Shown here: piece by piece, positions 28,576-39,553 of the stretch
Position numbering within the stretch: position 1 is the first letter of the stretch
Layout: each line of letters starts with the position of its first letter
Source: Polaribacter dokdonensis
GTDB taxonomy: Bacteria > Bacteroidota > Bacteroidia > Flavobacteriales > Flavobacteriaceae
NCBI RefSeq assembly: GCF_024362345.1
Contig: NZ_CP101505.1
Location: 2,377,501-2,441,500 of the forward strand
Reading direction: 5' to 3'
DNA length: 64,000 nucleotides
The notes under the pieces: generated by a model
The model's input: only the letters and a program-made list of their open reading frames with translations
What the model was told of the DNA's origin: nothing
The model's database searches: none
Translations under genes and position numbers: made by a program

Positions 28576-29859
28576 CTATGCATTCAGATAGTTTTTCAAG
28601 TCTTCGTAAGAACTAATTTTTAATGCTACCTTTTCTTTATCAATCACTTTTTTAATTTGCTGAGGTATTTCAACTTTAACAGGTAACGTACCTTCTACAA
28701 CATCTAAAAATTTAACAGGATGTGCAGTTTCTAAAAACACTCCAATTTCATTTTCTTTTAAACCATACTTTTCTAACCCTAAATAGCCAACAGCTCCATG
28801 AGGATCTGAAACATAACCAGAAATATCATAAATATCCTGCATCTTTTCACGAGTTTCATCATCAGAAAAAGAATAAGAAGAAAACGAATTTTTTAAAGTT
28901 TGTAGATCATTATTAAATAACTCTCTAATTCTAATAAAGTTACTAGGATTACCAACATCCATAGCATTAGAAATAGTTGCTTTAGATGGTTTTGGTTCGT
29001 AAACACCACTTTCTAAAAAGTTAGGTACAGTATCATTAACATTGGTAGAAGCCACAAAATGTTTAACTGGTAAACCCAATTTTTGAGCCATGATTCCTGC
29101 ACAAATATTTCCAAAATTTCCACTTGGTACAGAAAAAACGATGTCTTTCTTTTTTTGATGAAGCTCTTTGTAAGCAAAGAAAAAATAGAACATCTGAGGC
29201 AACCATCTTGCAATATTTATAGAGTTTGCAGAGGTTAGTTTTCTTGCAATTTCATCATCTAAAAAAGCTGTTTTTACCATTTCTTGGCAATCGTCAAAAA
29301 CACCATCAACCTCTAAAGCTGTAATATTTTTACCAAGTGTTGTGAGTTGCTTTTCTTGAATATCGCTCACTTTTCCTGAAGGATATAAAATAACAACGTT
29401 TACACCTTTGGCATCTAAAAAACCATTAGCAACAGCACCTCCTGTATCTCCAGAAGTGGCTACTAAAACTGTTACTTCCTCATCATTATTTGTATTAAAG
29501 TATTCTAAACATTGAGCCATAAATTTGGCACCAACATCTTTAAAAGCCATTGTTGGCCCATGAAAAAGCTCAAGAGAAGCAATATTATTATTGATTTCCA
29601 CAATTGGAAAATCGAACGTTAATGTGTTTTTAATGATGTCTTTTAAAATGTCTTCTGGTATTTCATTACCCACAAATTGTTTAATCACCTTGAATGCAAT
29701 TTCATGATTGGTGTAGTCAGAAATATTTTCGATAAATTCAGAAGATAGAGCTGTAATTTCATCAGGAAAATAAATACCTCTATCTTTTGCTAAGCCTTCT
29801 ATAACTGCTTTTTTAAAACTAGTTTTAGGTGATTTATGATGTAAACTATAATACTGCAT
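28576..29859 (-). CDS. thrC: Threonine synthase
   Basis: Last step of threonine synthesis: O-phosphohomoserine to threonine with PLP. The 427-residue protein has an N-terminal domain (YYSLHHKSPKTSFKKAV), the PLP lysine in GPTMAFKDVGAKFMA, and the phosphate loop VATSGDTGGAVA, followed by SANSINIARWLPQ and VPSGNFGN. This is the shorter class typical of Bacteroidetes and E. coli. It lies 1 base after the thrB stop and ends the thrABC operon. The stop adjoins, without a spacer, the stop of the small membrane protein on the other strand. Confidence 0.96.
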   Translation of the reverse strand: MQYYSLHHKSPKTSFKKAVIEGLAKDRGIYFPDEITALSSEFIENISDYTNHEIAFKVIKQFVGNEIPEDILKDIIKNTLTFDFPIVEINNNIASLELFHGPTMAFKDVGAKFMAQCLEYFNTNNDEEVTVLVATSGDTGGAVANGFLDAKGVNVVILYPSGKVSDIQEKQLTTLGKNITALEVDGVFDDCQEMVKTAFLDDEIARKLTSANSINIARWLPQMFYFFFAYKELHQKKKDIVFSVPSGNFGNICAGIMAQKLGLPVKHFVASTNVNDTVPNFLESGVYEPKPSKATISNAMDVGNPSNFIRIRELFNNDLQTLKNSFSSYSFSDDETREKMQDIYDISGYVSDPHGAVGYLGLEKYGLKENEIGVFLETAHPVKFLDVVEGTLPVKVEIPQQIKKVIDKEKVALKISSYEDLKNYLNA

Positions 29860-29860
29860 A

Positions 29861-30790
29861 TTAGTTCGATTCTAAAATTTTAATTCCTTTATCATTAATT
29901 TTTGAGGTAAATAAAGTATACGCTATTCCTGTGTTTTTATAACTTTCGTTAATTGCTGAGTGTACTTTATTAGCATCTTCATCACCTTTACATAACGCAA
30001 ATATAGTAGGTCCTGAACCTGAAATTCCTGCACCTAAAGCACCTGATTTTATAGCTGCATTTTTAACTTCATCAAAATGTGGAATTAGTTTTTTACGATA
30101 AGGTTCTACAATGATGTCAACCAAAGAATTGCTAATTAATTGATAATCTTCTCTATATAAACCACTAATTAAACCACCAACATTAGCCCATTGAGTAATG
30201 GCATCTTTTAAGTCTATTTTACTAGGTAAAACCGCTCTTGCATCTTTGGTTTTTACTTCAACTTGAGGATGAATAGCTACTAATTTCAATTCTTTTGGTA
30301 CAGGTAATTTTATAATTTCTAAAGGTTCATAACTTCTAATTAAAACAAAACCACCATAAATTGCTGCAGCTACATTATCTGCAATTTGTGAACCACAAGC
30401 TACTTCTTCACCAAACATGGCAAATTTTACCAATTCTAAATTCGAGTAAATATTTCCTAATAATTGATTCGCACCAAAAGCAGCACCTGCAGCACTTGCA
30501 GCAGAACTACCTAATCCACTTCCAGGAGAATAACCTTTAGAAATAGTTAATGCAACTCCAAAATCTGCATTTGCTTCATTCAGCATTTTTTTAACCACAG
30601 CACTTGCAGCATTTTCATCTACATTGTAAGATAAATTTGCGCCAGTTATAGCAGTAATTTTTACTCCTTTTTCTGCTGTTTTTATAAATGTCATTTCATC
30701 ACCAACAGTATCTACAGCAAACCCTAAAGAGTCGAAACCACAAGAAACATTGGCTACAGTTGCAGGAGAAAATAGTTTTAAATAGTTCAT
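29861..30790 (-). CDS. thrB: Homoserine kinase
   Basis: Makes O-phosphohomoserine from homoserine and ATP. The 309-residue GHMP kinase has the family signatures: LFSPATVANVSCGFDSLGFA at the N-terminus and the ATP loop PGSGLGSSAASAAGAAF (about residues 93-109), and near the C-terminus GALGAGISGSGPT. Cytoplasmic. It lies 3 bases after the thrA stop and 1 base before the thrC start, so the three genes are tightly coupled. Confidence 0.95.
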   Translation of the reverse strand: MNYLKLFSPATVANVSCGFDSLGFAVDTVGDEMTFIKTAEKGVKITAITGANLSYNVDENAASAVVKKMLNEANADFGVALTISKGYSPGSGLGSSAASAAGAAFGANQLLGNIYSNLELVKFAMFGEEVACGSQIADNVAAAIYGGFVLIRSYEPLEIIKLPVPKELKLVAIHPQVEVKTKDARAVLPSKIDLKDAITQWANVGGLISGLYREDYQLISNSLVDIIVEPYRKKLIPHFDEVKNAAIKSGALGAGISGSGPTIFALCKGDEDANKVHSAINESYKNTGIAYTLFTSKINDKGIKILESN

Positions 30791-30793
30791 TTT

Positions 30794-33232
30794 TTATTGA
30801 TTTGCTATTCGAATTACATCAGCAAAAATACCTGAAGCAGTAACATCTGCGCCTGCACCTGCACCTTTTATGATTAAAGGATTTTCTGGATATCTGTCTG
30901 TGAAAAATAATACAATATTATCACTTCCTTCTAAATTATAAAAAGGATGTTGAGCAGGAATTTCTTGTAAACCAACATTGGCTTTTCCGTTGATAAATTC
31001 AGCCACATATTTTAAACGTGAATTGTTTTTATGAGCCTTGGTAAATATTGATTGAAAGTGATTTTCATTCTTTTCTAATGATGCATAAAACGCTTCATTA
31101 TTAGAAGTATTTAAACTCTCTTCAGGTAAAAAAGGATTGTTTTTGATATCATCCAATTCTAATTGATAACCACTTTCGCGTGCTAAAATTAAAATTTTTC
31201 TGGCCACATCAATCCCACTTAAATCAATTTTTGGATCTGGTTCTGTATAACCTTCTTTTTGTGCTTGTTGTACAATATTTTTAAAAGTAGAATTTGCATT
31301 AAAATTATTAAATACAAAATTTAAACTACCAGATAAAACAGCCTGAATTTTATGAATTCTATCTCCTGAATTCACTAAGTTTTTTAAAGTATCTATTATT
31401 GGTAAACCTGCACCAACATTAGTTTCAAACAAAAAGGATGCATTATATTTTTTAGATAGATTTTTTAGATTTTTATAGTTGTTGTATTCAGAAGCACAAG
31501 CAATTTTATTACAAGTTACGACAGAAATACTATCTCTTAAATAGTTTGCATAGACTTCAGATACACTTTTATTTGCTGTATTATCTATAAATACGCTATT
31601 TCTTAAGTTCAGTTTTTTAACATGATCATGAAAAGATGCTAAAGAAGTTTCTTGCCCATTAGCTAATAAATCTTTCCAGTTTTTTAGGTTGATTCCAGAT
31701 TTATCAAAGTACATTTTTCTAGAGTTTGAAATACCAATAACTCTAATGTTTAACTTTAAGTTTTCTTTTAAGAACTTTTTTTGTTGATGAATTTGAGCTA
31801 AAACACGTTCACCTACATTTCCAACTCCTGTTACAAATAGATTAAGTTGTTTTGTGCGTTCTTCAAAAAACTCTTCATGCAAAGCGTTTAATGCTTTTTT
31901 TGCATCAAAACTATTTATTACAGCAGAAATGTTTTTTTCTGATGAGCCTTGAGCAATTGCTCTAACATTTACATTATTTCTACCTAAAGTGCTAAACATT
32001 TGACCACTTAAACCTTGATAGTTTTTCATGCTTTCTCCAACAACTGCAATAATTGCTAAATCGCTTTCTACACTAATAGGTTTTATTTTTTTTCTGTCTA
32101 TTTCAATACTAAAATTTGCTTCTAATATCTCTTTTGCTTTTTGAGCATCAGCATCATAAATACCAACACAAATTGAGTGTTCTGAAGAGGCTTGTGTAAT
32201 AAAAACTACGTTTATTTGGGCTAATGATAAAGCTTCAAATAATCGTTTAGAAAAACCAGGAATACCAATCATTCCTCCACCTTCTAATGTAATTAGGGTA
32301 ATTTCATCTATATGAGAAATTCCTTTTACATCACTTTTACTTTGTGGATTTTTACAAATTAATGTTCCTTCATTTTCTGGCGAAAATGTATTCTTTATTT
32401 TAATAGGAATATCTTTTCTTAAAGCAGGTTGAATTGTTGGTGGGTACAAAACTTTTGCTCCAAAATGAGAAAGTTCCATAGCTTCTTCATAAGAAATTTC
32501 TGGAATTGGATGTGCTTGTTTTACCACACTTGGATTGGCTGTAAACATTCCAGAAACATCTGTCCATATTTGTAATTCAGATGCATTTAATGCAGCAGCA
32601 TAAATAGCAGCAGAAAAATCAGAGCCTCCTCTTCCTAAAGTTGTTATTTCGTTCTCAGTATTCGAAGAAATAAAGCCTCCTAGAACAGTAACTTGATGTT
32701 TATTACTCTTGAAATAAGTGTGAATTAAATCATCTGTTTTATCAAAATTAACCTGAGCATTTAGATAAATATCGTTGGTAAGAATTAACTCTCTACTGTC
32801 TTTATGAGTTGCGTTTAAAATTTCTTTAGCTGCATTTGCAATGATATAAGATGATAGTCTTTCTCCAAAACTAGATACCTTTGCCAAAGTTTTATCAGAC
32901 AATTCCTGTAAAAGAAAAACACCTTCATAAATCGCATTTAATTTGGTAAATAGATTTACAACAGTTTCAGTAACTTCTTTTGAATTACTTTGAATTAAGT
33001 CGTCTATAACCTTAAAATGTAAGCTTTTTATTCCTTCTAAAATTTCCTTTGCTTCCTTTATGTTTTCTAAAGCCTTATTTGCACCTGCTAATAAATTATT
33101 GGTTGTTTTGCCAAATGCAGAAACTACAACTGCTACTTTATCTTGTTTAGAAGTATTTGCTACAATGCTTAATACTTGTTTTATGTTTTCTGAATTTGCT
33201 ACAGATGAGCCTCCAAATTTTAATACTTTCAT
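30794..33232 (-). CDS. thrA: Bifunctional aspartate kinase / homoserine dehydrogenase I
   Basis: The 812-residue fusion does the first and third steps of threonine synthesis. The aspartate kinase part starts VLKFGGSSVANSENIKQV (residues 2-19) and has GGSDFSAAIYA; ACT regulatory domains lie at about 310-450, where threonine binds to give feedback control. The homoserine dehydrogenase part begins near 460 with the NAD(P) motif VTGVGNVGERVL and has GSGLNFVF-like and FLFETNVGAGLPII segments. It is preceded by a threonine-rich leader peptide (33329-33433) and a hairpin, so transcription attenuation by threonine supply is likely. Intact and full length. Confidence 0.96.
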   Translation of the reverse strand: MKVLKFGGSSVANSENIKQVLSIVANTSKQDKVAVVVSAFGKTTNNLLAGANKALENIKEAKEILEGIKSLHFKVIDDLIQSNSKEVTETVVNLFTKLNAIYEGVFLLQELSDKTLAKVSSFGERLSSYIIANAAKEILNATHKDSRELILTNDIYLNAQVNFDKTDDLIHTYFKSNKHQVTVLGGFISSNTENEITTLGRGGSDFSAAIYAAALNASELQIWTDVSGMFTANPSVVKQAHPIPEISYEEAMELSHFGAKVLYPPTIQPALRKDIPIKIKNTFSPENEGTLICKNPQSKSDVKGISHIDEITLITLEGGGMIGIPGFSKRLFEALSLAQINVVFITQASSEHSICVGIYDADAQKAKEILEANFSIEIDRKKIKPISVESDLAIIAVVGESMKNYQGLSGQMFSTLGRNNVNVRAIAQGSSEKNISAVINSFDAKKALNALHEEFFEERTKQLNLFVTGVGNVGERVLAQIHQQKKFLKENLKLNIRVIGISNSRKMYFDKSGINLKNWKDLLANGQETSLASFHDHVKKLNLRNSVFIDNTANKSVSEVYANYLRDSISVVTCNKIACASEYNNYKNLKNLSKKYNASFLFETNVGAGLPIIDTLKNLVNSGDRIHKIQAVLSGSLNFVFNNFNANSTFKNIVQQAQKEGYTEPDPKIDLSGIDVARKILILARESGYQLELDDIKNNPFLPEESLNTSNNEAFYASLEKNENHFQSIFTKAHKNNSRLKYVAEFINGKANVGLQEIPAQHPFYNLEGSDNIVLFFTDRYPENPLIIKGAGAGADVTASGIFADVIRIANQ

Positions 33233-33328
33233 TTTGTAATTTTAAGTATTTACTTTTATAATATCTTTTAACTGAATTGCTTTTTGCAATACATGGTAAC
33301 CTGAAATAATATGAATAGAAATAAACCC

Positions 33329-33433
33329 CTAAAGGGTTGTAGTAGTTGTTGTAGAACGAGTTAAACCACTAAAAGTAGTTGCTACTAAAGTAGTAGTTAG
33401 AAGTTTTTGTGTATGTTTTTTAGATAAAATCAC
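33329..33433 (-). CDS. Threonine-rich leader peptide of the thr operon
   Basis: A 34-codon open frame on the reverse strand beginning GTG and ending TAG. It encodes 13 threonines, with a run of three (residues 13-15), a pair (19-20) and six in a row (28-33) just before a final Leu and the stop. The start lies 5 bases after the -7 box, so the mRNA would be nearly leaderless. The stop codon lies in the loop of the downstream hairpin. This is the expected form of a ribosome-sensing leader peptide ahead of thrA. There is no isoleucine run, unlike the E. coli thr leader, so only threonine would be sensed. Too short for ordinary gene calling. Confidence 0.72.
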   Translation of the reverse strand: MILSKKHTQKLLTTTLVATTFSGLTRSTTTTTTL

Positions 33434-33437
33434 ATCA

Positions 33438-33445
33438 CAAAAATA
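33438..33445 (-). promoter_or_regulatory. -7 promoter box of the thr operon
   Basis: The reverse strand reads TATTTTTG (TAnnTTTG), ending 5 bases before the GTG of the leader peptide. The nearest upstream TTG (33461-33463) is 15 bases away, a little short of the ideal 19. Confidence 0.5.
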
Positions 33446-33549
33446 GAAGTATTATTTATTCAAGGGTAATAGATTATCAATTATTTTCTAAAATTAGGCA
33501 ATAAATGAATTGTTGATAAAATACAATATAAAATAAAATGAAAAATGTA

Positions 33550-35112
33550 TTATTTATGTGTAAAATTTGCTTTTTCTTTAATAACTAAAGAAATAGGTTT
33601 GTTTTGTATTTTACTTTCTAACCAAGAAAGGATGTCTAAGTACAAGAATGCTCTTTTTTCATAAGGATGATCTTCATACACTTTAAGTTTAGCATGAATT
33701 TTCTTGAATTCATTTTTTATTTCATGAGGAAAAACATCACTCAAGTCTCTAATAGAAGTTAAAAATACTTTTTGAACTTCTTGTAAATTTTCCATTTTTA
33801 AAAGAAACTTATAGGTATCTACAAATTGTCTTTCTAAATCATAATCTAAACCACATTCATAATGTGCAATTAGGTTTAAAACCCTTGCAAAACATTGTAA
33901 ATCTTCAGCTGAACTTAAATTTTTAGATTTGATTATTTTTTGCAAATAAGCAATACAAAGCTCATTTTTACCCATTCCAAAATACAAGCATGCAATTTTA
34001 TAATAAAGCATTACAATGTAATGACTGTCTAATCTATTTTGATATTCTTCTAGTTTTTTATTGATAATTTCTACCAAATATTCACCTTCGGAAAAAGTAG
34101 CTTCTAAAAAGTGTAAGTGTAATTTATTAGCATATAAATACTGAAATATTAAGAGGTCTGTATTCATATTAGAAGGTATAACCTTCATATCTACATCTTC
34201 CTCAAAAGCTTTAAGTTCACTCTTAAAAGTAGATGCTTTTTTTACGAAGAAAGAAGCCTCTAATAAGTAATTAATACCTTTTAAATAAAAAACAGGATGT
34301 TGAGTTATGTACTTTTTGTCTGCCTTAAATAAAGAAACCCACTGACTTGCATATTTGTAGCTATGTAAAAAATCTTGTGTTAAGAAACTAAACCACAAAT
34401 GACTTTTATAGAGCCATAATTTTTCTCTAAAACCAAAAGTTTCAAAGTTGTACTTAGGTAATTTGCTATAAAAATATTGATTGATGAATTCTAGTTCTTC
34501 GTTATTTTTAACATAACCATTTTGTAGCAAGTGGCTGTATAATTGTAATGATAAATTAGATAGCTTACTAGCTACAACATTCTGTTGGCTCAACGTTTTT
34601 GCTTGCACAGAAAGCTGATCTGCTCTATTGCTTAAACTTCTAGTTATATATTGTGTTTCTATTACTTTTTCTAGTTCAACAATTTCGTAAGCAATATTTT
34701 TTTCTTCATTATCTAGAGCTAAGTTTTTAGCTTTATCTAACAGCTTTAAACTTTGTTTGTACAATCCTTTTTGATATAAAACTGTTGCAAAATCTAGCTG
34801 CTCTCGAATTTGAATTCTAATATTTTTATGAGCAGGATTTAAGCGTAAACTGATTAAAATTTGTTTGTACAAATGAGCTTTTAAGTTCGATAATTGTTGC
34901 TTAGAAACAATACCGCTTTTTATGATTTCCTTTTCATCATAGGCTTTTAATTTTTCTAAAAACTTAAAAAGAGAGAAAAATTTGGCATCAACATTTCCAC
35001 CTAATCTACCCACATACAAGTTAAATTGTCTTTTCTCAGATTTGGTTAAAGACTTAATTAAAACGAAAAGAGCATCATTTTGTTGGCTGACTGATGTAAG
35101 CTTTTTAATCAT
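33550..35112 (-). CDS. Helical-repeat (TPR-like) protein, function unknown
   Basis: A 520-residue soluble protein, almost all alpha-helical by composition, with repeated A/L/Y spacing reminiscent of degenerate TPR or HEAT-like helices (LYQKGLYKQSLKLLDKAKNL at about 114-133 is the best TPR-like unit; IACLYFGMGKNELCIAYLQK about 370-389 is another). No signal peptide and no catalytic motif. Such proteins of about 500 residues are common in Flavobacteriaceae without known role, so an adaptor function is a guess. It is divergent from leuA, lies upstream of the thr leader on the same strand, and looks like its own unit. Confidence 0.75.
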   Translation of the reverse strand: MIKKLTSVSQQNDALFVLIKSLTKSEKRQFNLYVGRLGGNVDAKFFSLFKFLEKLKAYDEKEIIKSGIVSKQQLSNLKAHLYKQILISLRLNPAHKNIRIQIREQLDFATVLYQKGLYKQSLKLLDKAKNLALDNEEKNIAYEIVELEKVIETQYITRSLSNRADQLSVQAKTLSQQNVVASKLSNLSLQLYSHLLQNGYVKNNEELEFINQYFYSKLPKYNFETFGFREKLWLYKSHLWFSFLTQDFLHSYKYASQWVSLFKADKKYITQHPVFYLKGINYLLEASFFVKKASTFKSELKAFEEDVDMKVIPSNMNTDLLIFQYLYANKLHLHFLEATFSEGEYLVEIINKKLEEYQNRLDSHYIVMLYYKIACLYFGMGKNELCIAYLQKIIKSKNLSSAEDLQCFARVLNLIAHYECGLDYDLERQFVDTYKFLLKMENLQEVQKVFLTSIRDLSDVFPHEIKNEFKKIHAKLKVYEDHPYEKRAFLYLDILSWLESKIQNKPISLVIKEKANFTHK

Positions 35113-35205
35113 AAAAAATTGATAATTAAATACTTATGTTTTTATATAGGATATTAGAAATCGTACAAAGTGGTAAAAGTAACTAAATATTTTAATCTCA
35201 TTAAA

Positions 35206-35213
35206 TACTTTTG
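35206..35213 (+). promoter_or_regulatory. -7 promoter box for leuAB
   Basis: TACTTTTG matches TAnnTTTG, 28 bases upstream of the leuA ATG. The region at -33 is A/T-rich without TTG. Confidence 0.45.
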
Positions 35214-35241
35214 ATTAAATATAAAGTCAATTTTTTTAATT

Positions 35242-36417
35242 ATGCAAAACAATCAAGTTCAAATATTTGATACAACTTTAAGAGATGGAGAGCAAGTTCC
35301 TGGTTGTAAGTTAGACACTACCCAAAAGTTAGTTATTGCAGAAAGGTTAGACTTGTTAGGAGTAAATGTTATAGAAGCAGGTTTTCCTGTTTCAAGCCCT
35401 GGAGATTTTAAATCGGTTTCAGAAATTGCAAAAATTGTAAAAAATGCTACAGTTTGTGGTTTAACAAGAGCTGTAGAAAATGATATAAAAGTAGCTGCAG
35501 AAGCTTTAAAATTTGCAAAATACCCAAGAATTCATACAGGTATTGGTACTAGTGATTCACATATCAAATATAAATTCAACTCAACAAGAGATAAAGTTAT
35601 AGAGAGAGCTATTAAAGCAGTTGCTTACTCTAAAACTTTTGTTGAAGATGTAGAGTTTTATGCAGAAGATGCAGGTAGAACAGACAATGAGTTCCTAGCA
35701 AAAGTGTGTGAAGAAGTTATAAAAGCAGGAGCTACAGTTTTAAATATACCAGATACAACTGGGTATTGTTTGCCAGAAGAATATGGTGCAAAAATGAAAT
35801 ACCTTAGAGAAAATGTAAAAGGAATAGAAAATGTTACACTTTCTTGTCATTGTCATAATGATTTAGGTTTGGCAACAGCAAATTCAATTGCTGGTGTAAT
35901 AAATGGAGCTCGTCAAATTGAGTGTACAATTAATGGAATAGGAGAAAGAGCTGGTAATACAGCTTTAGAAGAAGTGGTTATGATTTTAAATCAACACCCA
36001 TATTTAAATTTAGAAACCAGTATTAATACAAAACTATTGTATGATACAAGTATTATGGTTCGTGAAAAAATGGGAATGCCAGTACAACCTAACAAAGCAA
36101 TAGTGGGCGCAAATGCATTTGCTCATAGTTCAGGTATACATCAAGATGGAGTAATTAAAAATAGGGAAACTTACGAAATTATGGATCCTGAAGATGTAGG
36201 TGTTACAGAAAGCGCTATTGTTTTAACAGCAAGAAGTGGTAGAGCAGCCTTAGCTTACAGAGCTAAAAAAGTAGGTTATGAGCTAACAAAAATACAGTTA
36301 GATGAAGCTTACAAAGCCTTTTTAGAAATGGCAGATCAGCAAAAAGAAATAAAAGATGAAGACATACATGTCATCATGAAAAAAGTTAGTAATTTAGAGA
36401 AGTCAGCTATTGCATAA
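35242..36417 (+). CDS. leuA: 2-isopropylmalate synthase, short form without regulatory domain
   Basis: First committed step of leucine synthesis: acetyl-CoA plus 2-oxoisovalerate to 2-isopropylmalate. The 391-residue TIM-barrel enzyme has [14 protein letters not shown] (residues 9-22), GFPVSSPGD, and the metal-binding [16 protein letters not shown] (His-x-His), then [13 protein letters not shown]. It stops at about the length of the catalytic plus linker parts; the C-terminal leucine-binding regulatory domain found in about 510-residue enzymes is missing. Homocitrate or citramalate synthase is an alternative, but leuB 12 bases downstream supports LeuA. Cytoplasmic. Confidence 0.9.
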
Positions 36418-36429
36418 AATACTAGTGAT

Positions 36430-37551
36430 ATGAAATTTAATATAGCAGTAATTCCAGGAGATGGTGTAGGGCCAGAAGTTGTAGAACAAGCCAAAAAAGC
36501 TTTAGATGCAGTTGCTGAAGCTTACAACCATATTTTTATTTATAAAGAAGCACAATTAGGTGCAAATGCAATAGATGCTACAGGTGGTCCACTGCCAAAA
36601 GAAACTATTGAAATTTGTAAAAGTGCAGATGCTATATTATTTGGTGCAGTTGGAGATCCTAAATATGATAATGATCCATCAGCAAAAATTCGTCCAGAAC
36701 AAGGCTTGTTAAATTTAAGAAGAGAACTAGACCTATATTGTAATGTTAGGCCTGTAAAAGCTTACGATAATTTAATTTCTAACTCTCCTTTAAAAAGAGA
36801 AGTAATTAAAAATTCTGATTTTGTAATTTACAGAGAATTAACAGGTGGAATTTATTTTGGCGAAAAAACGCTTAGTGAAGACAAACAAACTGCACATGAT
36901 GTTTCTTCTTATACAGTAAAAGAAATTTCAAGAGTAACACATTTAGCATTTCAAGCAGCGCAAAAACGTAAGAAAAAACTAACCTTGGTAGATAAAGCCA
37001 ATGTTTTAGAAACTTCGCGTTTATGGAGAAAAACCGTTTCAGAAATAGCTAAAGAGTATAAAGATGTAGAATTAGAATATCTTTTTGTAGACAATGCAGC
37101 TATGAAAATGATTTTAAACCCAACACATTTTGATGTTATCTTAACAGAAAACCTTTTTGGAGATATGATTTCAGATGTTGCAAGTTCACTTTGTGGCTCA
37201 ATTGGTTTGTTGGCATCATCGTCAATTGGTGCAGAAAATGGCTTGTTTGAACCAATTCACGGTTCTTATTCTCAAGCAAAGGGCAAAGACATTGCAAATC
37301 CTTTAGCATCAATTTTATCAGCAGCTATGTTATTACAATATTTAGGCTTGCATGAAGAAGCAGATGCTATAGAAAGAGCAGTAGATAAATCTTTGGCTTT
37401 AGGTATCACTACTCAAGATATCAAAAGAAAAATGCAAAAATCTACAACCACTTCTAAAGTTGGTGATTTTGTTGCAGATTATATTACCAATCAAGATGAT
37501 AGTAATATGAACTTCAGAAACATTCACATGGGTCAAAGTACTATTATTTAG
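36430..37551 (+). CDS. leuB: 3-isopropylmalate dehydrogenase
   Basis: NAD-dependent oxidation and decarboxylation of 3-isopropylmalate. The 373-residue protein has IPGDGVGPEV (residues 8-17), LLNLRRELDLYCNVRPVK (substrate arginines), RELTGGIYFGEK (tyrosine loop) and LTENLFGDMISD (metal-binding aspartates), then the NAD site GLFEPIHGSYSQAKGKDIANP. Usually found with leuCD, which are absent here. A palindromic element follows its stop; no clear T-run terminator is present. Confidence 0.95.
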   Translation: MKFNIAVIPGDGVGPEVVEQAKKALDAVAEAYNHIFIYKEAQLGANAIDATGGPLPKETIEICKSADAILFGAVGDPKYDNDPSAKIRPEQGLLNLRRELDLYCNVRPVKAYDNLISNSPLKREVIKNSDFVIYRELTGGIYFGEKTLSEDKQTAHDVSSYTVKEISRVTHLAFQAAQKRKKKLTLVDKANVLETSRLWRKTVSEIAKEYKDVELEYLFVDNAAMKMILNPTHFDVILTENLFGDMISDVASSLCGSIGLLASSSIGAENGLFEPIHGSYSQAKGKDIANPLASILSAAMLLQYLGLHEEADAIERAVDKSLALGITTQDIKRKMQKSTTTSKVGDFVADYITNQDDSNMNFRNIHMGQSTII

Positions 37552-37650
37552 AAGCTATTTCCAGCTTTCAGCACTCGCTTTTTTTTGATTCTGAAATAAA
37601 TTCAGTATCAAAAAAAGAGCTCAAACAAATGCCTCAATCTGGGCTAAACT
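37551..37650. repeat. REP-like palindromic intergenic element
   Basis: A long imperfect hairpin: CTCGC-TTTTTTTT-GAT-CTGAA (37574-37595) pairs with TTCAG-ATC-AAAAAAA-GAGC (37601-37620) around a 5-base loop, bracketed by CCAG (37561-37564) and CTGG (37639-37642) and ending in GGGCTAAAC. There is no T-run after the right arm, so it is not a normal terminator. The layout (CTCGCTTTTT, variable stem, AAAAAGAGCTC, GGGCTA) resembles interspersed palindromes I associate with Flavobacteriaceae genomes, an identification from recall that needs a genome search. Confidence 0.5.
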
Positions 37651-37876
37651 TATTTGTGAGCCAAATTTAGTTTTTAAAATATCAAATTCACTTTAAAATA
37701 AAGATTTCTTTGTAAATATTACAACTACTGAATATCATATTAAAATGTATTTAAAGTGTTGATTTACAGTCATAAAGATATTTATTATTTACCCTGAATT
37801 TAAACGAAGTCATTATAATATTAATAACAAAATAACTGAATAATAATATTTTTGTTAATAAAGAAACAATTCGTAA
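37552..37876 (+). other. 325-base gap between leuB and ilvD: REP-like element, then ilvD promoter region
   Basis: The first 100 bases or so hold a strong palindromic element (see separate entry). The rest is A/T-rich (about 37660-37846) and ends in the ilvD -7 box. I looked for an Ile/Val/Leu-rich leader peptide as in many ilv operons: the only ATG frames are 5-14 codons without such runs, so none is supported. No riboswitch-like pattern was seen. Confidence 0.6.
37847..37854 (+). promoter_or_regulatory. -7 promoter box for the ilv operon
   Basis: TATTTTTG matches TAnnTTTG, 22 bases upstream of the ilvD ATG. No TTG at the -33 spacing. Confidence 0.42.
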
Positions 37877-39553
37877 ATGGAATTAAATAAACACAGCAAA
37901 AGATTAACGCAAGACGAATCTCAACCAGCTTCACAAGCCATGTTGTATGCAGTTGGTTTATCAGAAGAAGATATGAGCAAAGCTCAAGTGGGTATTGCAA
38001 GTACAGGTTATGATGGTAATCCTTGTAATATGCATTTAAACAACTTAGCTGCAGAAGTTAAGGTAGAGAGTAAAATTGCAGGTTTGGTTGGTTTAGGTTT
38101 TAATACAATTGGAGTTTCAGATGGTATTTCTATGGGAACTTCAGGTATGAATTATTCTTTAGCATCAAGAGATATTATTGCAGATTCTATAGAAACTGTG
38201 ATGAACGCTCAGAGTTATGATGCGTTGGTTTCTGTTGTAGGTTGTGATAAAAATATGCCAGGTGCAGTTATTGCAATGTTACGTTTAAACAGACCATCAA
38301 TTATGATGTATGGAGGTACAATTGCCTCTGGTAATTATAAAGGTAAAAAATTAAACATTGTTTCTGCTTTTGAAGCTTTAGGTCAAAAAGTTGCTGGCGA
38401 AATTGATGAGAATGAATACAAGGAAATTATAAAAAGAGCAATTCCAGGAGCAGGTGCTTGTGGAGGTATGTATACAGCAAATACAATGGCTTCTGCAATA
38501 GAATGTATGGGTTTTGCTTTGCCTTATAATTCGTCTATTCCTGCAGAAAATCCAAATAAATTATCTGAAGCAGAAAGAACTGCCTTAGCAATCAAAAACT
38601 TATTAGAGTTAGATTTAAAACCATTAGATATCATTTCTAAAAAATCATTAGAAAACGCTGTGGCTTTGGTAAATGCTTTAGGAGGTTCTACAAATGCTGT
38701 TTTACACTTTTTAGCAATTGCACATGCAGCAGAAATAGATTTTACTTTAGAAGATTTTCAAACAGTTTCAGACAGAACTCCTTTAATTGCAGATTTAAAA
38801 CCATCAGGTAAATACTTAATGGAAGATGTTCATGGAGTTGGAGGTACACCTGCAATTATGAAGTATTTATTAGATAATGGCTATTTACATGGAGATTGTT
38901 TAACTGTTACAGGTAAAACGTTGGCAGAAAATTTAGCTGATGTAAAAGCAATGGAGTTTGAAGATCAAGATGTTATTTATCCAAAAGATAAAGCCTTAAA
39001 AACATCAGGAAATATTCAAATTATTTACGGAAATCTAGCTACTGAAGGTGCTGTTGCTAAAATTTCTGGAAACGAAGGTTTATTATTTGAAGGTAAAGCT
39101 GTGGTTTACGATGGTGAACAAGCAGCAAATACTGGTATTTCAAATGGAGAAGTAGAAAAAGGAGATGTTGTTGTCATTAGATATGTGGGTCCTAAAGGTG
39201 GTCCAGGAATGCCAGAAATGTTGAAGCCAACATCATTAATTATGGGTGCAGGTTTAGGTAAATCTGTAGCATTAATAACAGATGGTCGTTTTTCAGGAGG
39301 TACTCATGGTTTTGTTGTTGGGCATATTACTCCAGAAGCACAATCTGGAGGAGCAATAGGTTTGTTAGAAACTGGCGATAAAATTAAAATAAGTGCAGAA
39401 GATAACTCTATTAATGTACTTATTTCTGATGAAGAATTAGCAAAAAGAAAAGCAAATTGGGTAGCACCTGCACTAAAACATAAAAAGGGAATTTTATACA
39501 AATATGCGAAATCTGTAGCCTCTGCATCTAAAGGATGTGTTACTGATTTATAA
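37877..39553 (+). CDS. ilvD: Dihydroxy-acid dehydratase
   Basis: Third step of isoleucine/valine synthesis: dehydrates 2,3-dihydroxy acids with an iron-sulfur cluster and Mg. The 558-residue protein has the cluster cysteines in [12 protein letters not shown] (about residues 42-53), [11 protein letters not shown] (about 121-131) and [16 protein letters not shown] (about 193-208), and [14 protein letters not shown] near the C-terminus. Length is normal. First gene of ilvDBNC; a 98-base purine-rich spacer separates it from ilvB. Confidence 0.96.

Follow-up and report, generated by a model that had tools for sequence, protein, structure and literature searches.

Introduction

In E. coli and other gamma-proteobacteria, the thrABC operon encodes a bifunctional aspartate kinase/homoserine dehydrogenase (AK-HSDH) and is preceded by thrL, a Thr/Ile-rich leader peptide; the E. 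coli leader reads both threonine and isoleucine. Within the phylum Bacteroidota, an attenuator leader peptide has been described for tryptophan, the Bacteroid-trp leader (RF01692, PMC2864571). A study of Flavobacterium psychrophilum reported strong signs that operons for amino-acid biosynthesis are attenuated through leader peptides and named pheA and hisG among structured 5′ elements, while the word “threonine” is absent from its main text, supplements aside (PMC9723704). According to the same source, the sigma-A box TAnnTTTG of this species sits at −12 to −5, and leaderless mRNAs are rare, amounting to 5.5% of mapped mRNAs. In B. thetaiotaomicron, ∼3.7% of 5′ UTRs are reported to be shorter than 10 nt.

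Leaders without a terminator and leaders that begin at the start codon are known in actinobacteria (PMC1262725, PMC8079986). Mycobacterial Cys leader ORFs were described as carrying a run of end-product codons near the stop codon and no terminator hairpin, and Rho was suggested by the authors for these cases (Seliverstov 2005, PMC1262725). In Streptomyces (PMC8079986) and Sinorhizobium (PMC7298713), leader peptide mRNAs are reported that start at the start codon, and Sinorhizobium trpL RNA begins at its ATG. Some leaderless leaders in these two reports, leuL1 and a thrL located ahead of thrS, also lack a typical U-tract terminator. In the open-licence literature on leader peptides, attenuation and thrL, to the extent that its text was accessible, we found no description of a Thr leader in Bacteroidetes or Flavobacteria.

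Here we describe a leader peptide ahead of thrABC in Polaribacter dokdonensis and its relatives. Judged from sequence comparison, it is unusual in two ways: its GTG start is predicted to be leaderless, and a conserved terminator is missing.

Materials and Methods

The 64,000-nucleotide stretch of P. dokdonensis DNA that was analysed is referred to as the window. For comparison, thrA upstream regions were collected from 80 named loci and from the family, the latter being the best-scoring 30 of 386 family genomes with a match, so that family members with a distant ThrA are under-sampled. Further regions came from 29 loci of the window's own genus, 29 loci of the genus of G127 (Flavobacterium-like) and 40 additional own-genus stretches. 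Together with the window, 209 regions were located. Removal of 28 duplicates and of L045, a 94-base piece from the end of a contig, left 180 distinct upstream regions. Two candidate hairpins were present in 2 of the 180 rows, and the one preceded by more Thr and Ile codons was chosen. Groups were set by hand from the names of the relatives and the look of the leader, giving 70 Polaribacter-type, 25 Tenacibaculum-type and 47 Flavobacterium-type sequences and 37 others.

Results

The window carries thrA, encoding bifunctional aspartate kinase/homoserine dehydrogenase I (30794–33232, minus strand; NCBIfam NF006959, 1050.8 bits, cut-off 726), followed on the same strand by thrB, encoding homoserine kinase (29861–30790; NF002288, 378.2 bits, cut-off 194), and thrC, encoding threonine synthase (28576–29859; TIGR00260, 297.7 bits, cut-off 167.1). 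The thrA-thrB and thrB-thrC gaps are 3 bases and 1 base, respectively. A first-pass annotation had pointed to a GTG-started, 34-codon frame upstream of thrA with 13 Thr codons, six of them consecutive, and this frame can be read directly at 33433–33329 on the minus strand. It ends with a UAG stop codon 96 bases ahead of thrA, is predicted to be leaderless, and encodes the 34-residue peptide MILSKKHTQKLLTTTLVATTFSGLTRSTTTTTTL. The six consecutive Thr codons (33352–33335) precede the final Leu, and the last of them, ACC, forms part of the left arm of a hairpin (hairpin B, below). The richest 12-codon stretch of the window's leader contains 7 Thr, a count that was reached in none of 2000 dinucleotide shuffles of the 350-base upstream region; the shuffle maximum was 6, in 10 of 2000. 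The TAnnTTTG box that had been noted just ahead of the GTG is likewise present, as the −7 promoter box TATTTTTG at 33445–33438 (minus strand), with four bases (33437–33434) between box and start codon.

The upstream neighbour of the leader (33550–35112) encodes a 520-aa protein with a weak match to the BT_2802 family (96.9 bits, cut-off 550). The genes adjoining 35112–35242 and 37551–37877 are presumably leuA-like and ilvD-like, and by eye no obvious leader peptide is seen ahead of either of them in the window.

The nineteen nearest named ThrA relatives are all from Polaribacter and are 76–81% identical. A frame rich in Thr and Ile that runs into the same small hairpin (ACCC..GGG, with its ACC in frame with the ORF) was found in 179 of the 180 distinct thrA upstream regions, bearing out across the family the proposal that a thr leader peptide precedes thrABC. 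The sole miss, L102, has neither hairpin nor leader. None of the 179 frames has fewer than four Thr and Ile residues in its last 11 codons (hairpin ACC included), and the two codons preceding the ACC specify Thr or Ile in 91% and 95% of cases. The best Thr count in 12 codons is 2–9 (median 6) in the sense direction, compared with 1–4 in antisense and mostly 2–4 in dinucleotide shuffles. ACA, ACT, ACC and ACG are all used and freely exchanged in the 179 runs, which argues that amino acids, and not bases, are conserved there. Leader lengths vary by whole codons, and in the N-terminal part of the frame the share of synonymous differences is 0.38 vs. 0.23 expected, as counted over pairs that are not independent. 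After the ACC the frame continues as L-stop (100 sequences), P-stop (34), PLG-stop (18), PFGV-stop (13) or other short tails (14), so that translation would mostly terminate in or just behind hairpin B. An alignment of relatives, as the first-pass annotation had recommended, showed the Thr codons to be conserved and revealed a covarying stem, that of a hairpin in mid leader (hairpin A, below).

A second AK-HSDH of the genus, ∼39% identical to ThrA, served as a paralogue control. None of its 19 upstream stretches contains the hairpin or more than 4 Thr in 12 codons; 7 of these stretches are part of a longer open frame, which leaves 12 genuine upstream regions, and the combination of hairpin and Thr/Ile-rich leader was found in 0 of the 12. 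In the seven cases, all from the window's own genus (L221–L224, L237–L239), the open frame of the paralogue (e.g. G000:C1:1531403–1533808) extends ∼330 codons further upstream. A model consisting of hairpin B plus the linker that follows it had a single match in the genome of the window when E values up to 5 were admitted, and this match is at thrA. Across 30 genomes (the window's own and relatives), the model gave 16 matches with E values no worse than ∼0.001. Their coordinates place all of them at thrA, and they come from 16 of the 18 genomes of the genus, with a single match per genome. The next-best match had E = 0.05, and in 12 genomes from other families of the order no match was found below E 0.06. 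Both genus genomes without a match are incomplete, with thrA at a contig end in G408 and no close thrA match in G403. The idea that hairpin B plus linker is a general amino-acid-leader module was discarded, as all 16 good matches sit at thrA. By these comparisons the leader peptide is conserved and not a product of chance; it is well supported, represents a familiar type, and very probably responds to threonine through ribosome stalling.

At least one Ile codon is present in the last 12 codons of 147 of the 179 runs, and these codons (ACC included) contain a mean of 5.9 Thr and 2.0 Ile. The run in the window has Thr only and 0 Ile, and its sisters L123–L125 carry one Ile there. Thr alone, which the first-pass annotation had taken to be the signal, therefore describes the window's run but does not extend to the family, in which the leader probably senses Thr and Ile, as far as codon content can tell. 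Because Ile is so widespread in the runs and the E. coli leader likewise reads both amino acids, the ancestral signal is likely to have been Thr plus Ile.

The position of the box suggests where transcription begins. With the box at −12 to −5, as in F. psychrophilum, the predicted +1 is 33433, on the start codon itself. In the Polaribacter-type group the start codon (GTG in 63 and ATG in 7 of 70) lies exactly 4 nt after a box with at most one mismatch in 69 of 70 sequences, and at 26 nt in the remaining one; if a perfect box is required at that position, the count falls to 64 of 70. Box-to-start distances are 5 bases in 22 of 25 Tenacibaculum-type sequences, 9–11 in 46 of 47 Flavobacterium-type sequences, and 2–32 in 36 of the 37 others, one of which has no box. 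Among the window's 47 predicted genes, 17 such distances were obtained, ranging from 5 to 56 with a single case of 5. A −33 element is not clear, as TTG occurs in the expected stretch in 66 of 171 sequences. An internal ATG as the true leader start was ruled out, since several sequences, including the window, L002 and L039, do not have one. From this geometry, the thr leader peptide of the Polaribacter-type group is predicted to be leaderless, with its start codon on +1. In trp leaders of the genus the box-to-start distance is 6–8 in 11 of 12, suggesting that nearly leaderless leader peptides may be usual in the genus, although his and phe leaders differ in that such near-leaderless spacing was not seen in them.

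Folding z-scores of the 179 leaders place hairpins at the same positions in all four groups. The profile shows hairpin A in mid leader, a modest dip at hairpin B and a third hairpin (C) ∼45 bases after the start of B, with an unstructured linker between B and C; hairpins A and C are on the whole weaker in the other-genera group. In the window, hairpin A (33396–33382, minus strand; CUACUA-CUU-UAGUAG) has Thr codons in its left arm and is indicated by z-profile, fold and covariation. Among 46 distinct Polaribacter-type rows, all 7 of its pairs show two-sided changes, with a covariation score of 0.253 vs. 0.021–0.084 for slid versions; 0 of 500 shuffles were as good, in a test that relatedness can inflate. 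In the window's own hairpin A the best register is shifted, and 5 of the 7 counted pairs form. An in-house scan for covariation over the entire alignment, with a null model based on a tree, covered 62 Polaribacter-type, 47 Flavobacterium-type and 25 Tenacibaculum-type rows; it was underpowered and gave no significant helix in these three groups. The best pairs had expected counts of 0.2, 2.8 and 1.3, respectively, and none lay in a clean helix.

Hairpin B (33338–33324, minus strand; AACCC-UUUA-GGGGUU) overlaps the stop codon, with its loop and first right-arm base containing the UAG, and is followed by the tail UAUUUCUAUU. The first-pass description of a hairpin directly after the frame, with the stop codon in it and a U-rich tail behind it, thus fits the window. 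The linker (33323–33303, minus strand) contains CATAT at 33313–33309 and has folding z-scores above 0 in the Polaribacter-type group. CATAT is found in 147 of 179 linkers; the base shares are 0.198 for C and 0.044 for G across the 179, and 0.136 and 0 in the window.

Hairpin C (33290–33276, minus strand; AUUGC-AAAAA-GCAAU) has no U-tract after it and is supported by z-profile, fold and stem counts. A perfect stem of at least 7 pairs is present in 84% of 70 Polaribacter-type, 100% of 25 Tenacibaculum-type, 94% of 47 Flavobacterium-type and 41% of 37 other sequences, vs. 21, 30, 56 and 20% in shuffled sequences; the window's own hairpin C is weak, with 5 pairs. In the Polaribacter-type group the median distance from its end to the thrA start is 40 nt. 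Two roles for this element were rejected. As an intrinsic terminator it is disfavoured by the scan, in which only 5 terminator-like sites (≤−5) start at +40 to +49, the position of C. As a DNA operator it is disfavoured by a loop length of 3–11 in the Polaribacter-type group, which fits RNA better.

The distance between leader and gene is not constant. Hairpin B lies 160–204 bases before thrA in 24 of the 179 sequences (L049, L051, L055 and L059 among them), and 22 of these 24 are Flavobacterium-type; in most others the distance is ∼80–130 bases. The longer sequences have an insert between leader and gene.

When the left arm of hairpin B was blocked in silico, its right arm paired with the linker with a mean probability of 0.21 in the Polaribacter-type, 0.31 in the Tenacibaculum-type, 0.48 in the Flavobacterium-type and 0.30 in the other sequences. 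The linker offers a CC partner for this pairing in 45 of 47 Flavobacterium-type and 17 of 70 Polaribacter-type sequences, but not in the window. In these folding models, the pairing of the right arm with the linker would resemble an antiterminator-like move. The antiterminator that had been proposed earlier, a GGTT in the peptide gene that pairs with the left arm of the hairpin, was not recovered in the fold predicted for the window, where AACTACT in the Thr run is the partner of AGTGGTT and the hairpin forms alongside this pairing. AGGTTAT in Polaribacter linkers was also considered as a partner for AACC and ruled out, as it becomes AGGTCA in rows that keep AACC (L005, L007).

In a scan for terminator-like sites, the window's hairpin B appeared once, vs. 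a mean of 0.1 in shuffles; its folding energy is only −6.0 kcal/mol. Across the thr leaders, a stem with a U-rich tail was found in 42 of 179 at −6 kcal/mol or below, in 12 at −8 or below and in 2 at −10 or below; a conserved intrinsic terminator downstream of the thr leader was not found in these sequences. The genus also has his leaders (runs of H), phe leaders (FYFYFYFF) and trp leaders (WWW), the his and phe leaders occurring in other families of the order as well. By the same criteria, a strong intrinsic terminator is present in 10 of 10 his loci, in 9 of 10 phe loci, and in 12 of 12 trp leaders. The trp leaders, unlike the other two sets, were selected in a way that favours terminators: they are the best-scoring 12 of 31 matches to a model that ends, on its 3′ side, with the left arm of the terminator. 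The phe locus without a terminator (L282) is also without a Phe-rich leader. Since trp, his and phe keep strong terminators and thr does not, thr stands out as the exception in genomes that otherwise rely on classical attenuators. The first-pass annotation had taken the hairpin to be a terminator. The hairpin is indeed conserved, but its U-rich tail and stability are not kept, and on the evidence of these sequences hairpin B is not convincingly a terminator.

The window's genome itself contains a his leader, MTFIQNHHHHFYNCSQAI (L275, G000:C1 near 485993), a phe leader identified by eye (L288, G000:C1 near 1506793) and a trp leader, MINKQNISWWWNSLNK (L112, G000:C1:2831687–2831800), each with a strong intrinsic terminator. 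The trp leader is the only RF01692 match in this genome at E up to 0.001 and sits ahead of an anthranilate-synthase-like gene; RF01692 was not found at thrA. An Rfam search at the thr locus gave no match at the gathering score or at E up to 10, the threonine-leader family Thr_leader included.

Fifteen ThrA orthologues from other families of the class were also inspected. A type-B hairpin is present at L247, L249, L255 and L256. The Thr/Ile runs of L253 and L254 were not matched in 200 shuffles, while the Thr/Ile excess of L247, L249, L250, L255 and L256 is not significant alone (18–75 of 200 shuffles equal it), and the remaining eight have no leader by this measure. At L254, a Thr/Ile leader and, behind it, a strong hairpin with a T run are seen by eye ahead of thrA; this arrangement may represent an ancestral form, that of a classical attenuator. 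At L250, where 18 of 200 shuffles reach the Thr/Ile excess, a possible leader, MTTIMSIMGDVQSWR, contains Thr, Ile and Met codons, and a strong hairpin with a T-rich tail is seen by eye before thrA; this leader is perhaps an aspartate-family sensor.

Discussion

Comparison of thrA upstream regions reveals a conserved peptide, recurrent hairpins and a characteristic spacing of box and start codon, and shows that no intrinsic terminator is conserved. For this last reason, the signal that stops transcription is probably not intrinsic, and we consider it probable, with reservations, that the thrABC operon is controlled by ribosome-mediated attenuation through its leader peptide with a non-intrinsic stop. 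We infer that the leader is translated and that it would sense charged tRNA-Thr, and in most relatives also charged tRNA-Ile, by ribosome stalling. Transcription would start on or beside the start codon, and a ribosome would load on the leaderless or nearly leaderless mRNA and trail RNA polymerase at a short distance, with hairpin A as a possible pause site for the polymerase. When Thr is sufficient, the ribosome would reach the stop codon in or just behind hairpin B and leave, and transcription would mostly end before thrA. When Thr is scarce, the ribosome would stall in the run, hide the left arm of B and alter the downstream RNA, allowing polymerase to enter thrABC. A ribosome that finishes the peptide would hide the right arm of B, and the placement of the stop codon in this hairpin has the same geometry as in segments 1 and 2 of trpL.

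The likeliest candidate for the stop is Rho, acting on the unstructured linker. Rho is a candidate because C exceeds G in the linker and the genome has a Rho gene; we propose it tentatively, with the balance of judgement against it. Over the whole stop-to-ATG stretch the window is barely skewed, with C at 0.110 vs. G at 0.088 against a window background of 0.113/0.103. Rho would also need an extra step to give control the right sign, since a stalled ribosome would not cover the linker, and the pairing between the right arm of B and the linker that could supply it has only modest modelled probabilities and a CC partner in a minority of Polaribacter-type linkers. In its full form, our proposal is that in Flavobacteriaceae the thr leader works as a ribosome sensor without a terminator, its Polaribacter version being leaderless, and that hairpin B and the conserved CATAT linker relay the stalling of the ribosome to Rho or another factor. 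On this full form our judgement is close to evenly balanced and leans slightly against. To our knowledge, such a decision step has not been described for thr operons.

Other explanations differ in how well they account for these observations. The ORF is short and has a GTG start, as a chance reading frame in an AT-rich leader might, but its conservation in 179 of 180 upstream regions, the synonymous exchange of Thr codons and the negative paralogue control make this extremely improbable. A classical attenuator would have hairpin B as a weak intrinsic terminator and the upstream pairing with the Thr run as antiterminator. The window taken by itself is consistent with such a device, as its hairpin B has a U-rich tail and is the single terminator-like site found, and so is the distant orthologue L254 with the Thr/Ile leader, strong hairpin and T run seen there by eye. 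Across relatives, however, neither tail nor stability is conserved, whereas the his, phe and trp leaders show what real terminators of these genomes are like. Moreover, the stop codon lies within the hairpin in 134 of 179 sequences (those with L-stop and P-stop tails), so that a finishing ribosome would itself cover hairpin B. We therefore regard a classical attenuator as unlikely.

It is also conceivable that the leader controls translation or stability of the thrA mRNA, and not transcription. Structured RNA without a conserved terminator would suit this arrangement, as would the short distance between hairpin C and the thrA start in the Polaribacter-type group, and in the window the predicted openness of the thrA start is 0.66 with a stalled ribosome vs. 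0.47 with a ribosome at the stop codon. This difference is not general: the test covered 148 of 179 sequences, those in which hairpin B and thrA are no more than 130 bases apart, and the mean difference ranged from −0.015 to 0.013 over the four groups. On this ground we rejected control through the thrA start, though the window itself changes, and translational control is unlikely on average because openness is the same in both states; as a whole, control of translation or stability appears distinctly unlikely. Attenuation with a non-intrinsic stop is the explanation that we prefer.

All four leaders (trp, his, phe and thr) are expected to read charged tRNA, and a single genome allows direct comparison of three that have classical terminators with one that does not. 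Identifying what ends transcription at thr, or what else happens there, would show how translation and expression are coupled in Bacteroidota. With its constant start geometry, this leader would also be a clean test case for leaderless GUG translation in a setting where leaderless mRNAs are reported to be rare.

With E. coli and gamma-proteobacterial thrL, the leader shares a Thr/Ile-rich peptide ahead of an AK-HSDH thrABC operon. It differs from thrL in having no conserved intrinsic terminator and, in the Polaribacter-type group, a start codon at the predicted +1. The Bacteroid-trp leader RF01692, to go by its published outline (PMC2864571), is an attenuator leader peptide of the same phylum, and it is also present in the window's genome; trp leaders are likewise nearly leaderless, but they have a strong terminator, sense Trp and differ in structure. 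Mycobacterial Cys leader ORFs, in the account cited above (PMC1262725), similarly combine a run of end-product codons near the stop with the lack of a terminator hairpin, whereas the thr leader belongs to another phylum, reads another amino acid, and has conserved hairpins and a conserved linker motif. Finally, relative to the leaderless leaders reported for Streptomyces (PMC8079986) and Sinorhizobium (PMC7298713), the start described here is deduced from sequence, occurs in Bacteroidota, uses mostly GTG, and stands ahead of thrABC.
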